Assembly (NCBI GenBank): GCA_030611505.1 | Contig: JAUWPO010000004.1 | Location: 1 to 45,264 of the forward strand | Length of the DNA stretch: 45,264 nucleotides | From: Chloroflexota bacterium | GTDB taxonomy: Bacteria > Chloroflexota > Anaerolineae > Anaerolineales > UBA4823 | Direction: 5' to 3' | Shown here: one piece after another, positions 7,696 to 44,724 of the stretch | How positions within the stretch are numbered: the stretch's first letter is position 1 | Layout: the number at the start of each line of letters is the position of its first letter | Translations under genes and position numbers: made by a program | Notes under the pieces: model-generated | What the model was told of the DNA's origin: nothing | Database searches by the model: none | What the model saw: only the letters and a program-made list of their open reading frames with translations

Positions 7696-8610
7696 ATGGA
7701 CACTAACACAATAAACTCAAAAGCTGGTTTCGTAGCTGTTATAGGTCGTCCCAATGTTGGAAAATCGACCTTGATGAATGCCCTTCTTGGACAGAAAATC
7801 GCAGCGGTTTCCTCACGCCCTCAAACAACACGCAAGCGACAGATGGGGATTCTGACAATAAAAAGCAAAGACAAATATTCGCAAGTTATATTCGTTGATA
7901 CACCTGGCATCCATAACCCGCGACATAAGCTCGGTGAACGAATGAATCGGGAAGCTAAGGCCACCCTCGAAGATAGTGACGTAATTCTACTTGTAGTGGA
8001 TGTAAGCCAAGAACCAAACGAGGAAGATCTATTGTTATTTAATCTTCTCGCTGGACTAAATCGTTCTATTCCCGTGGTTTTAGCTTTAAATAAGAGTGAT
8101 CTTGCGAATAACGAGGTTTTTAGTATAAACCGTGAAGCTTACATGAATGGTATCCCAAGAGCCACTGATATATCCGTTTCGGCTACCCGAAGAGTGAATC
8201 TAGATAATCTGCTGGGTGAAATCACTTCACACTTGCCCAAAGGCTTACCTTTCTTTCCGGATGATCAATTAACTGATTTATACGAACGAGAAATTACTGC
8301 GGACCTTATCCGCGAAGCCGCCTTAACTTTATTGCGTGATGAAATTCCGCATGGTATTGCGATTCGCATTGACCAATTCACAGAGCGCGGAGAGGGTGGC
8401 GCTTATATAGAAGCGACCATCTTCGTAGAACGCGAATCTCACAAACCAATCGTGGTTGGTCAAGGTGGCAGCATGATAAAGAAAATCGGAAGCGCTGCCC
8501 GCAAAGAGATCGAAGCGATGAGCGGACGCAAGGTATATTTACGATTAAATGTGAAAGTGCGCAAGAATTGGCGCAATGATGAAAAAATCCTACGCAGGAT
8601 GGGTTTTTAA
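7696..8610 (+). CDS. era: GTPase Era
   Basis: A 304-residue Era of normal length, involved in 16S rRNA 3'-end maturation and 30S assembly. The G domain has GRPNVGKSTLMNALLGQ (about residues 17-33), SSRPQTTRKRQ switch I, DTPGIH, NKSD and an SAT-type G5. The C-terminal KH domain shows VGQGGSMIKKIGSAARKEIE. The ATG at 7696 appears leaderless (see the -10 at 7684). The 3' end overlaps the next gene by 35 bases, implying translational coupling. Confidence 0.97.
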   Translation: MDTNTINSKAGFVAVIGRPNVGKSTLMNALLGQKIAAVSSRPQTTRKRQMGILTIKSKDKYSQVIFVDTPGIHNPRHKLGERMNREAKATLEDSDVILLVVDVSQEPNEEDLLLFNLLAGLNRSIPVVLALNKSDLANNEVFSINREAYMNGIPRATDISVSATRRVNLDNLLGEITSHLPKGLPFFPDDQLTDLYEREITADLIREAALTLLRDEIPHGIAIRIDQFTERGEGGAYIEATIFVERESHKPIVVGQGGSMIKKIGSAARKEIEAMSGRKVYLRLNVKVRKNWRNDEKILRRMGF

Positions 8611-9268
8611 TTTGTTTTATATTATCGCAGTGGTTATCGCAGTTGTTGATTGGATCGCATTAGCGGGTCAAAAAAAGCGTATTGACTATTTCGCCAAACC
8701 CGGCGTTATCATCGCACTGCTGATCTGGTTGGCACTCAATGGAAATTTAAGTGGTCATTTAATATGGTTTTTTATTGGGCTGCTTTTTTCTCTGGCGGGA
8801 GATGTATTTCTCTTACTACCCAAGGAACAATTCAATGCAGGTCTCGTCTCATTCCTGCTGGCACATGTAGCTTATATCATCGGATTCAATGACATATTGC
8901 CCCCAGGCAATCTTGTGAGCATTTCCCTCATTTTAATTATTACGATAACCGCCTGCCAGATATTCCGTTCCATATCAACAGGATTGGAACGATCAAACAA
9001 TTCAAAAATGAAAGTGCCGTTCCTTTTTTACAGCATCACAATCAGCTTGATGGTGCTTTCTGCATGTCTTACCTTAGTAAAAGGAGACTGGATAGCCGGT
9101 CCTGCTCTGCTCGTCAGCGGCGGCGCAGTGCTCTTCTTCCTATCCGATACATTATTAGCCTGGAATAGATTCGTAACCCCCATTCCAAATGCTAAATTAC
9201 AGGTGAGGGTAACCTATCACTCTGGACAGTTCCTGATCGTGCTGGGAGCATTTTTGCGTTTCACATGA
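8576..9268 (+). CDS. YhhN-family (TMEM86-like) integral membrane protein
   Basis: A 230-residue, very hydrophobic protein with about seven to eight predicted membrane helices. It carries the YhhN/TMEM86 family signature: KPGVIIALL near residue 41, then GDVFLLLPKEQFNAGLVSF followed by LLAHVAYIIGF. Animal TMEM86 members hydrolyse lysoplasmalogens, while bacterial YhhN function is not settled. So I assign only the family. The first ATGs (8576/8579) lie inside era and no Shine-Dalgarno is evident, suggesting coupling to era translation. Confidence 0.8.
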   Translation: MMKKSYAGWVFNLFYIIAVVIAVVDWIALAGQKKRIDYFAKPGVIIALLIWLALNGNLSGHLIWFFIGLLFSLAGDVFLLLPKEQFNAGLVSFLLAHVAYIIGFNDILPPGNLVSISLILIITITACQIFRSISTGLERSNNSKMKVPFLFYSITISLMVLSACLTLVKGDWIAGPALLVSGGAVLFFLSDTLLAWNRFVTPIPNAKLQVRVTYHSGQFLIVLGAFLRFT

Positions 9269-19639: not shown

Positions 19640-20242
19640 TTAACTCTCTCTCACCAGACGATACGCGGGTGGCAAAAGTTCCCCAAATCCACCCAGGCAG
19701 TCGCGCATTCGAAGGCGCCCTCTTGCCAGACGGCTTTTCACAGTTCCCAATGGCTTCCCAATCGCCTCGCTAGCTTCTCGATAGTCCAAGCCGTGAATAT
19801 CCACCAAAACAACAACTGTCCTGAAATCCATGGGGAGTTTATCCAGACAATGCTGCAGCGCGCGGCTTAGCTCGCTCCGTTCAGTGAACTCTTCGGGTGA
19901 TTCGGCCGGGTCCGCAAGCCATTGAGGAGACTCTATCCTTTCATCTTCCTTGTTCAAAGGTTCCAGAGGTGTAGTGGGACGCCGCTTCTTGCGACGGAGT
20001 TCATCATAACAAACATTCGTAACAATTCGCAACAGCCATGCTTTGAACGAACCCCCGCGGAAAGATTTGAGGTTTTTATAAGCCGAGATAAAAGCATTCT
20101 GGGTTGCATCCTCAGCAGCATCGGATTCCCCCATCAGGCGGTAAGCCTGATGGTAAAGCAAATCCTGGTAAGCCAATACCAGGCGGTTGAAAGAATCCAG
20201 ATCACCCTTACGTGCATCACTGATTAAAGCCAATTCATCCAT
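19640..20242 (-). CDS. ECF-type RNA polymerase sigma factor
   Basis: A 200-residue sigma factor with regions 2 and 4 only. Region 2 includes YRLMGESDAAEDATQNAFIS and FKAWLLRIVTNVCYDELRRKK. Region 4 includes LPMDFRTVVVLVDIHGLDYR followed by the HTH PLGTVKSRLARGRLRMRD. It directs transcription of a specific regulon and forms a pair with the downstream anti-sigma gene. The start ATG at 20242 has no strong Shine-Dalgarno. I could not find a clear promoter or autoregulatory motif. Confidence 0.93.
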   Translation of the reverse strand: MDELALISDARKGDLDSFNRLVLAYQDLLYHQAYRLMGESDAAEDATQNAFISAYKNLKSFRGGSFKAWLLRIVTNVCYDELRRKKRRPTTPLEPLNKEDERIESPQWLADPAESPEEFTERSELSRALQHCLDKLPMDFRTVVVLVDIHGLDYREASEAIGKPLGTVKSRLARGRLRMRDCLGGFGELLPPAYRLVRES

Positions 20243-20380
20243 TTATCATCTCACACGCGCAGCGATAGACGCAAACAGGTAGTGCAAACCAAAAATGGTC
20301 GATCGAATAGACCGTGTGCAAGTGTCCATGCTCACACTATACTATCAAAAAGCCCACAATGGGACAAGGGAAAACACAAG

Positions 20381-20415
20381 TGATTAATTTGTGATAAATT
20401 TGTGTGATAAATTTG
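20381..20415 (+). repeat. Three direct repeats abutting a -35 box
   Basis: TGATTAATTTG (20381-20391), TGATAAATTTG (20392-20402) and TGATAAATTTG (20405-20415) are spaced 11 and 13 bases apart, close to one helical turn. The last repeat ends immediately before the TTGACA. The position, about -70 to -36, fits activator sites or an A/T-rich UP element. Confidence 0.65.
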
Positions 20416-20444
20416 TTGACAACCTATCTTCAAAATGCTACAAT
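20416..20444 (+). promoter_or_regulatory. Near-consensus sigma-70 promoter
   Basis: TTGACA (20416-20421, perfect), a 17-base spacer, and TACAAT (20439-20444, 5 of 6). The expected start is near 20451, which is 332 bases upstream of the malic enzyme ATG. A terminator hairpin follows about 110-140 bases later. It therefore probably drives a short RNA, or a regulated leader of malic enzyme. Confidence 0.8.
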
Positions 20445-20450
20445 CAAACA

Positions 20451-20592
20451 ACTTTCAAAAAACACGGGGTTTTCAACGCGTGAGCTCTTCGATAATGATG
20501 AATATTCAAAAAGTGGAAAAGCATCTGTTTCCACACACAAAAAATCTATTCAATCCGCCCCTGCCGCAGAACACAGTTGTGGCGATTTTTAT
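20451..20592 (+). ncRNA. Candidate small RNA of about 140 nt
   Basis: The span between the strong promoter at 20416 and a hairpin-T-run at 20563-20592 contains no plausible protein. It can fold an internal hairpin, GTGGAAA (20513-20519) with TTTCCAC (20528-20534) and an eight-base loop, and then the terminator hairpin. Read on the minus strand the internal hairpin is followed by TTTTT and could also act as a terminator in that direction. I recognise no known RNA family; the ends do not pair as in 6S RNA. A conditional leader of the malic enzyme gene is the main alternative. Confidence 0.4.
20563..20592 (+). terminator. Intrinsic terminator upstream of malic enzyme
   Basis: GCCGCA (20563-20568) pairs with TGTGGC (20578-20583), including one G-U pair, with a nine-base loop. 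It is followed by GATTTTTATT. The stem is short, so termination may be partial. Confidence 0.5.
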
Positions 20593-20717
20593 TCCTTCTA
20601 ATAACTGTCCACATCGTTTAATCTATTCGCGTTTGGAAACGGACCACAACTATCGGTGTGTCTCGTATTGACCTTCAGATGGTTGACTCGAGTTAGGCGC
20701 TCGGATTGGAGAACTTA

Positions 20718-20744
20718 TTGACATATTAAACCCCCAAACATAAT
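20718..20744 (+). promoter_or_regulatory. Proximal promoter for malic enzyme
   Basis: TTGACA (20718-20723, perfect), a 15-base spacer, and CATAAT (20739-20744, 5 of 6). The start would fall near 20751, giving a leader of about 30 bases that contains CGGAGA before the ATG at 20783. The short spacer lowers confidence. Confidence 0.5.
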
Positions 20745-20782
20745 TTATACCCACCAATGTAATAACAAAACGGAGATAATAA

Positions 20783-22150
20783 ATGACGGCAGAAAAAGAT
20801 AAGCAGCAAGTAGACGTAGATAAACTCCTTGCGAAAGCGAATAAACCTTCCAAGGACGCCATGATCTTGCATCCTCACTATCGCGGCAAGATCGAAACCG
20901 CGCTTAAATGCCCGGTTAGGGATTTCGACGACTTTGCCATCTGGTACACCCCCGGCGTGGCAGCGCCCTGTCGGGCGATCGCGGAAGATCCCGATTTGGT
21001 ATATGAATACACAAATAAATGGAACACCGTGGCGGTCGTCAGCGATGGTACGCGCGTATTAGGTCTGGGAGATATTGGTCCAAAAGCCGGACTACCGGTC
21101 ATGGAAGGGAAAGCCCTTCTATATAAATATTTAGGTGGCATCGACGGCATTCCAATTATGCTGGACACGAAAGATCCAAATAAGATCATCGACACCGTCT
21201 TACTTCTGCAGCCCTCATTCGGCGGCGTCAATTTGGAGGATCTCTCACAACCCAAATGCTTCCGTATCCTCGACACCCTGCGTGAGAAAGCCGAGATACC
21301 TATCTGGCATGACGACCAACAGGGCACGGCAACTGTCACTTTGGCAGGACTGATCAATGCACTCAAGGTGGTCGGCAAAAAGATGAGTGACGTGACCATA
21401 GCATTCATTGGTACTGGGGCGGCTAATGTAGCCTGTTCGCGCCTTATCTTCGGCTGGGGAGCTGATCCCGGACACTGCTTCATGGTGGACAGCAAAGGTA
21501 TCTTAGGTAAACACCGCAAAGATTTAGAAATGCGCAAAGCCGAATATGTCGATAAGTGGCGTCTATGCACGACCACCAACAACGAAGGACGTGAGGGTGG
21601 CATCCCTGAGGCAATGAAGGATGCAGATGTGGTCATCGCCTTATCGCGACCAGGTCCAGATATCTTATTACCAGAATGGATTGAGAAGATGGCCAAAGAC
21701 CCCATAGTTTTTGCATGCGCTAACCCAGTCCCTGAGATTTGGCCTTGGGATGCTAAAAGTGCGGGCGCGGCTGTGGTCGCTACAGGTCGCTCAGATTTCC
21801 CTAACCAAGTAAACAATTCACTCGGATTTCCTGGAATTTTCCGCGGCACTCTCGACGTGCGTGCCCGTACTATCACGGATGAAATGTGCTTCGCAGCCGC
21901 CGAAGCTATGTCGAATCAAATCGGTGATAAGCTCGACGAGGAGCATATATTACCTACCATGGACGATTGGGAAGTATTTCCCCGCGAGGCTGCTGCAGTA
22001 GGGATGAAGGCCCAGGAACAAGGTCTGGCGCGTTTACAAATGAACTATGACGAACTCTTCAATCACGCAGCTAAAATCATCAAGCGCTCACATGAATTGA
22101 CACAAATGATGATGAATATGGGATTCATCGCTGAGGCGCCCGAGGATTAA
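20783..22150 (+). CDS. NAD(P)-dependent malic enzyme
   Basis: A 455-residue malic enzyme that oxidatively decarboxylates malate to pyruvate. The catalytic-tyrosine motif YTPGVAAPCRAIAED, the catalytic-lysine segment DIGPKAGLPVMEGKALLYK, and HDDQQGTATVTLAGL are present. So are the Rossmann loop FIGTGAANVAC and FACANPVPEIWP. It is the short form without a fused phosphotransacetylase domain. It has a GGAGA Shine-Dalgarno. With the following flavoprotein and KorAB it suggests reducing-equivalent and C3/C4 balancing under anaerobic conditions (inference). Confidence 0.93.
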   Translation: MTAEKDKQQVDVDKLLAKANKPSKDAMILHPHYRGKIETALKCPVRDFDDFAIWYTPGVAAPCRAIAEDPDLVYEYTNKWNTVAVVSDGTRVLGLGDIGPKAGLPVMEGKALLYKYLGGIDGIPIMLDTKDPNKIIDTVLLLQPSFGGVNLEDLSQPKCFRILDTLREKAEIPIWHDDQQGTATVTLAGLINALKVVGKKMSDVTIAFIGTGAANVACSRLIFGWGADPGHCFMVDSKGILGKHRKDLEMRKAEYVDKWRLCTTTNNEGREGGIPEAMKDADVVIALSRPGPDILLPEWIEKMAKDPIVFACANPVPEIWPWDAKSAGAAVVATGRSDFPNQVNNSLGFPGIFRGTLDVRARTITDEMCFAAAEAMSNQIGDKLDEEHILPTMDDWEVFPREAAAVGMKAQEQGLARLQMNYDELFNHAAKIIKRSHELTQMMMNMGFIAEAPED

Positions 22151-22238: not shown

Positions 22239-23144
22239 ATGTACGATTTAATTGTTGTTGGTGGAGGCCCTGCTGGTCTGACTGCTACGATGTACGCCAT
22301 CCGTAAACGGATCAATGTTCTGCTTGTATCCAAAGACCTGGGAGGCAAGACAAACTACAAATTGGGGCTCCCATGGATCAAGGATTATCAGGTCATCCAC
22401 GGTTTAGAGGTTGTCAATAAATTCAGAAGCGAATTGGAGTATCTCGACTTCGCCCGCCATATGGAGCCTGTAGATGAAATCAAGAAGGATGAGGGTGGAT
22501 TTTTAGTCGTGACCAGGGGTGGTGGAGAATTGAAGACCAAAGCCGTCATCATCGCCACTGGTGCAAAGCAACTGCGCCTTAAAGTCCCGGGTGAAAAAGA
22601 ATATATGATGCGCGGGCTTTGTTATTCTGCGCTGAGTTATGCGCCTCTCTTCATCGACCGGACCGTAGTCGTAATCGGTGACGGCGACCTGGCAATGCGT
22701 TCAACAGCAGAATTGGCTACTATCGCTGACCAGGTATACCTGGTCAGCAAATCCAACAGAGAATTGGCCTCGCCATTGGGAAAGAAACTAACAGCGGCTG
22801 ATAATGTCACGGTTCTCGACGGTCATGAGGTTATCGAAGTAAAGGGCGACGATTACGCCAGAAGTGTGATGGTGAAAGGCCCTGACGGAAAAATCTCGGC
22901 AATTGAGGCCGACGGAACGTTTATCGAGATGGCGCTCATTCCCAACTCACAAATGATCGCCGATATGGTTAATCTCGATGACCAGGGAAGAATCGTTGTA
23001 GATTGCGCTAATCACACGAATGTTCCCGGGATTTTTGCTGCCGGTGACATCACATCTGGATTTGCAGAGCAAGTTCTCATTGCCGTAGGGGAAGGAGCAA
23101 AAGCCAGTCTGAGTGCATATGAATACCTGCTGCCAAAATTGTAA
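22239..23144 (+). CDS. Thioredoxin-reductase-like FAD/NAD(P) oxidoreductase lacking CxxC
   Basis: A 301-residue two-dinucleotide-fold flavoprotein. The FAD motif VVGGGPAGLTATMYA is at the N-terminus, an NAD(P) motif VVIGDGDLAMRS is central, and GIFAAGDITSG lies near the C-terminus, as in TrxR. Where TrxR has its redox CxxC this protein reads RGLCYSALSYAPLF, with only one Cys. It therefore should not reduce thioredoxin by the usual route. A ferredoxin-NAD(P) reductase-like role is possible given the neighbouring KorAB, but is inference. It is followed by a strong terminator. Confidence 0.85.
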   Translation: MYDLIVVGGGPAGLTATMYAIRKRINVLLVSKDLGGKTNYKLGLPWIKDYQVIHGLEVVNKFRSELEYLDFARHMEPVDEIKKDEGGFLVVTRGGGELKTKAVIIATGAKQLRLKVPGEKEYMMRGLCYSALSYAPLFIDRTVVVIGDGDLAMRSTAELATIADQVYLVSKSNRELASPLGKKLTAADNVTVLDGHEVIEVKGDDYARSVMVKGPDGKISAIEADGTFIEMALIPNSQMIADMVNLDDQGRIVVDCANHTNVPGIFAAGDITSGFAEQVLIAVGEGAKASLSAYEYLLPKL

Positions 23145-44580: not shown

Positions 44581-44613
44581 CAGTGATCTTTACTGCCCAG
44601 TGATCTTTACTGC
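44581..44613 (+). repeat. Two tandem copies of a 16-base sequence
   Basis: CAGTGATCTTTACTGC occurs at 44581-44596 and 44598-44613 with one base between, followed by a partial third copy (CAGTGCTC). It lies in the gap between the GNAT gene and the last gene. The arms CAGT/ACTG of each copy also form a short inverted repeat. Confidence 0.8.
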
Positions 44614-44724
44614 ACAGTGCTCTCTTTCGTGCCATCAAAGGCAGCAACACATCCATCCCTTCAGGGATTCCTCACAACGTTCGGAATGACATACCCCTAT
44701 TTGTTATTCTAAAAGGAGCTGAAA

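Follow-up and report, generated by a model that had tools for sequence, protein, structure and literature searches.

Short tandem arrays lie directly upstream of the -35 hexamer at many strong promoters of an Anaerolineales (Chloroflexota) genome, with a different sequence at each locus, and are nearly absent from the corresponding promoters of relatives. One of these arrays, made of three repeats, abuts a strong promoter upstream of a malic enzyme gene within the 45,264-nt stretch of DNA analysed here (the window). The source contig is contig 82 of a 2.3-Mb MAG, 86% complete, whose closest relatives are Anaerolineales.

Results

A triple repeat abuts a strong promoter

Three plus-strand units, AGTGATTAATTTG (20379–20391), TGTGATAAATTTG (20390–20402) and TGTGATAAATTTG (20403–20415), spaced by 11 and 13 nt, form a tandem array at 20379–20415 that runs up to the -35 box of a sigma-A promoter. 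This promoter, TTGACA-17-TACAAT, was found by promoter scan at 20416–20444 on the plus strand with 11/12 matches (TTGACA, 20416–20421; TACAAT, 20439–20444). The initial annotation, which had described three TGATwAATTTG repeats abutting TTGACA with a 17-base spacer and TACAAT, was borne out here. None of 200 Markov copies of the region contained a comparable triple, and the triple repeat is beyond chance. Sites of the form TTGACA-N16-18-TAYAAT number 23 in the genome, compared with 2 for the reversed pattern; because this promoter class is enriched and the triple was absent from the Markov copies, the promoter is probably real, with a predicted transcript start near 20451. The array at this locus is AT-rich, the 45 nt upstream of the -35 having an AT content of 0.78.

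Repeats and promoter sit between an ECF-type sigma factor gene (19640–20242, minus strand; Pfam PF04542 and PF08281) and the divergent malic enzyme gene (20783–22150, plus strand; PF00390 and PF03949), behind which lies a pyridine nucleotide-disulphide (thioredoxin-reductase-like) oxidoreductase gene (22239–23144, plus strand; PF07992). The oxidoreductase gene adjoins malic enzyme in relatives too. By synteny comparison, malic enzyme does not neighbour the ECF sigma gene in relatives. The ECF sigma gene probably has its promoter at about 20340–20367 on the minus strand: a minus-strand TTGTCC adjoining the array is similar to the upstream region of locus L160.

Many strong promoters of the genome have an array that ends at the -35 box

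The pattern was first noticed on inspection of the DNA upstream of the 23 best promoters, many of which had tandem repeats, with a different sequence each time. With a repeat score of 9 or more in the 50 nt before the -35 taken as an array, arrays were present at 9/22 near-consensus promoters, as against 0/44 control windows from the same loci, and their sequence differed at every one of the loci. A wider scan took in 0.95 Mb of the same genome, with 94 intergenic promoters scoring 10/12 or better, from stretches picked partly for strong promoters or pattern matches, a choice that alters the number of promoters but not obviously the fraction with arrays. Across these 94 promoters, array coverage reached 0.13–0.15 in the 30 positions immediately preceding the -35 (-30 to -1) but dropped to 0.02 on the hexamer itself, and none was seen at -130 to -101; throughout the 0.95 Mb it was zero more than 100 nt upstream of the -35. 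At 14/94 promoters an array ended no more than a few bases from the -35, whereas positions drawn at random from intergenic DNA had one in 0.9% of cases (p~2e-13), and the excess of arrays exactly at the -35 was 16-fold. Counted from the side of the arrays, 16 of 73 intergenic arrays abutted a promoter, versus 3 and 2 at shifted positions. The promoters scoring exactly 10/12 matter most, because the idea arose from the first 23 promoters and the 10/12 set, which contains none of these, is independent; arrays were found at 7 of its 61 members. The association between promoters and arrays is statistically strong.

The genes behind array promoters are unrelated (ffh, recA, acpP, rpmF, tRNA-Asn, a cysteine synthase-like gene and GntR, LacI, TetR and ROK genes, with names assigned by reading the proteins). 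Intergenic DNA between convergent genes contains arrays too, at 9.0 per 10 kb, so duplication is not confined to promoters and the excess at the -35 adds to a background. In coding regions they are no more frequent than in relatives.

Among relatives, 1/97 promoters of this class carried an array, compared with the 9/22 in this genome (Fisher p=4.6e-7), and a survey of promoters of four long-contig relatives together with malic-enzyme loci gave 0/51. The architecture seems to be lineage-specific, the relatives compared all lying outside the genus of this genome. Crude phrase searching of the open-access literature found no arrays of this kind described in Chloroflexota or elsewhere. A repeat running into a TTGACA box is rare yet present in other genomes: at L177 (G008:C193), TTGACAAATTTGC occurs twice and is followed by TTGACA, and at L167 (G155:C53) the tandem repeat is TGATTAATTTGTGATTTTCTTGACA.

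Other elements were noticed as well. AGAAC-N4-GTTCT-like boxes, likely the LexA/SOS boxes of this lineage, overlap several strong promoters, including those of recA and small genes: L192 (C47), L193 (C48), L199 and L200 (C105) and recA (L338 15385), of which L192, L199 and recA have tandem arrays as well. Small tandem clusters of CAGTGnTTTTTACTGC, a palindrome-like repeat, are scattered through intergenic DNA and may represent a REP-like family of the genome (window 44581–44623; L351 5976–6249; L354 4588–4653; L371 7463–7504). A short tandem repeat of TTATCGCAGTGG (2.2 copies) lies at window 8622–8647, just 3' of a plus-strand gene ending at 8610.

Array units differ between loci and may serve promoter tuning

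Arrays consist of 2–3 copies, near identical within a locus, of a unit of 10–18 nt (mostly 14–15 nt), and most of them end 3 bases or fewer from the -35. Unit AT content is 0.64, compared with 0.63 for upstream DNA generally. The units of 18 arrays had no common motif, and k-mers were shared between them no more than between shuffled units. Derivation of the -35 itself from the last repeat unit was considered and rejected, as hexamer and spacer retain no unit similarity beyond that of controls.

We tentatively favour, at somewhat short of an even chance, a reading in which the locus is a strong housekeeping-type promoter with a locus-specific array and a leader into malic enzyme, and arrays are kept for promoter tuning. 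Segments of 10–18 nt just upstream of the -35 would have been duplicated in tandem in this lineage and retained, since having a favourable contact segment in more copies would raise or tune output. At this locus the array lies directly before the -35, as arrays do at a large minority of the strong promoters of the genome, and fills about -38 to -75, where RNA polymerase alpha subunits or an activator touch DNA. Transcription would start near 20451 and most likely continue as a long untranslated leader into malic enzyme and on through the oxidoreductase gene. The array, the promoter, the genome-wide association and its near absence from relatives are observed; transcription from this promoter, its reach into malic enzyme and an effect of the arrays on transcription are inferred. 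The position and diversity of the arrays would suit extra contact DNA, multiplied by tandem duplication, for alpha subunits or a non-specific factor. They do not readily fit an ordinary UP element, because the units are not especially AT-rich and their periods of 10–18 nt do not hold one helical phase.

The strongest competitor is that the arrays are functionless, arising in this lineage from a mutation process that acts locally (such as slippage at promoters where polymerase is bound or the strands are open) and duplicates DNA up to the -35. That each locus has its own array sequence, that copies are near identical and that arrays occur away from promoters too would all be expected of such a process, and duplications reaching into the -35 would harm it. 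However, a 16-fold excess exactly at the -35 demands a process specific to promoters, and coding-region arrays are not commoner than in relatives; we consider neutrality rather unlikely, while giving it real weight. A broader proposal is that a promoter-directed process both creates and maintains locus-specific arrays ending exactly at the -35 of strong promoters, tuning or varying the expression of unrelated genes genome-wide; we offer this as a speculation that is rather unlikely to hold.

The repeats do not behave as a shared operator

The initial annotation had called the repeats a triple operator. The three repeats are present, but the operator reading is weakened, since the repeat dimer is unique to the locus in its genome and unrelated promoters carry different arrays. 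Single sites with up to 3 mismatches numbered 80 in the genome versus 53 in the control, which is near background, and the best of them were mostly intragenic. An operator shared across loci was rejected because the dimer is single-copy and matches in other genomes (up to 3 mismatches) are mostly intragenic as well, the exceptions being L167 and L177, which adjoin a promoter.

The array could still be the operator of one specific direct-repeat regulator (OmpR/PhoB-like, or an autorepressor) controlling malic enzyme, the ECF sigma operon or both. In its favour, the locus has direct repeats with spacings of 11 and 13 nt that immediately precede a -35 and are flanked by two divergent promoters, and several array promoters drive regulator genes (GntR, LacI, TetR and ROK), each possibly with an operator of its own. 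Extended to the genome, however, this would need a separate regulator for every promoter, including those of ffh, recA, acpP, rpmF and the tRNA, with periods ranging from 10 to 18 nt, whereas a single regulator would leave a motif common to several promoters and the units of the other arrays have none. We therefore regard a dedicated operator as unlikely.

The promoter probably starts a long malic enzyme leader

From the position of the promoter and the lack of coding signal behind it, the most likely product is a leader of about 330 nt (predicted at 20451–20782, plus strand; a shorter RNA if a hairpin terminates it) for the genes of malic enzyme and the oxidoreductase, the latter also called flavin reductase. 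Such a long leader is a simpler product than a small RNA and could possibly be a conditional one. Elsewhere in this genome, genes that have a ribosome-binding site also lie behind strong promoters at leader lengths reaching about 280 nt; at 331 nt, the predicted leader at this locus would be the longest of the set, which, like the presence of a weak closer promoter, counts against the leader reading. The closer promoter of its own that had been ascribed to malic enzyme does exist as a candidate, TTGACA-17-TAATTT at 20718–20746 on the plus strand (TTGACA, 20718–20723), but it is weak: TAATTT has 3/6 matches and the candidate was absent from the promoter scan.

Attenuation of the 331-nt leader at the hairpin near 20585 is quite improbable. 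A few other Anaerolineales (L065, L088, L102 and L105) do have strong hairpins followed by T-runs in their malic enzyme leaders, but most relatives have no terminator-like hairpin before malic enzyme, in many of them the gene lies directly 3' of another gene, the hairpin at this locus is weak and aptamer families gave no match. The L065 and L105 leaders have in common a strong 33-nt hairpin near the malic enzyme start (AACCGCTCGATCTGC...GCAGATGGAGCGGTT and a variant, then CTATTTTC), ending 29 nt before the start of the match; it is a possible attenuator or translation control site.

A discrete small RNA is not supported

The initial annotation had proposed an undescribed regulated RNA gene with two hairpins and a T-run, and no credible protein. 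Both hairpins exist, but they are not convincing as a terminated RNA, with 7 terminator-like sites in the region compared with 4.8 +/- 2.4 in shuffles. The first, a 7-bp hairpin at 20513–20534, has a T-run to its left and reads better, from its sequence, as a candidate minus-strand terminator. The second is a weak plus-strand terminator-like hairpin (20562–20591; stem-loop 20562–20584, then ATTTTTATTC, with an ATTTTTA tail) of -9.5 kcal/mol, a value matched in 6/200 shuffles but typical of sites found at noise frequency in this genome: hairpins with U-runs of -9 to -12 kcal/mol occur at 0.33/kb in Markov sequence versus 0.43/kb after genes here, whereas sites below -15 kcal/mol are present after genes and never in shuffles.

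The claim that no credible protein follows the promoter was right in effect. The sole frame, of 58 aa (20495–20671, plus strand), spans both hairpins, has no ribosome-binding site and scored lower in codon usage than all 58-codon pieces of real genes; a homologue search found none. It was thus judged non-coding and rejected as a leader peptide.

The 145-nt RNA (20451–20595) folds as shuffles do (z -0.75), and Rfam searches at gathering and relaxed thresholds gave no credible match. Conservation in related genomes, which the initial annotation had named as a check, was not seen: the 540-nt region had no sequence match in 60 related genomes, all outside the genus of this one. A discrete RNA of about 135–140 nt (20451 to about 20590) would have a promoter of its own in TTGACA-17-TACAAT, and a strong one, along with a hairpin followed by a T-run and no coding frame, but with its fold, terminator, Rfam result and conservation as above we judge it very improbable, and a small RNA gene is not supported.

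Discussion

If the arrays act on transcription, this lineage would set promoter strength in a general way by duplicating DNA beside the -35, and the genes affected would be as basic as ffh, recA and acpP. The natural promoters that carry arrays would also form a ready collection for altering the number and sequence of units, and their distance. They call for caution as well: in such a genome, a repeat adjoining a promoter should not be taken as a sign of either a dedicated regulator or a regulated small RNA.

The locus resembles intrinsically terminated bacterial small RNAs in having a promoter, a short non-coding stretch and a hairpin with T-run, but differs from them in a terminator at noise level, the lack of conserved structure and a transcript that is only predicted. 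Operators of OmpR/PhoB-family regulators consist of direct repeats, with one motif at many genes. The direct repeats at this locus, about 11 nt apart and adjoining the -35, are like these, whereas the arrays of this genome have a motif of their own at each gene and a variable period.

UP elements are bound by the C-terminal domain of RNA polymerase alpha, and the arrays occupy the same position, immediately upstream of the -35, with coverage peaking at -30 to -1 before it. An UP element, however, is an AT-tract that follows a consensus, a character which most of the arrays lack: unit AT content is 0.64 and 18 arrays had no common motif.

A precedent for alpha binding over repeats comes from Neisseria meningitidis, where RNA polymerase alpha binds TAAA repeats lying upstream of the nadA promoter (PMC2791445); these are likewise tandem repeats, and they influence transcription. 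The nadA repeats concern one gene and a 4-nt unit in many copies, whose number varies within the species, whereas the arrays described here have units of 10–18 nt in 2–3 copies, occur at many promoters with a unit peculiar to each, and end at the -35.
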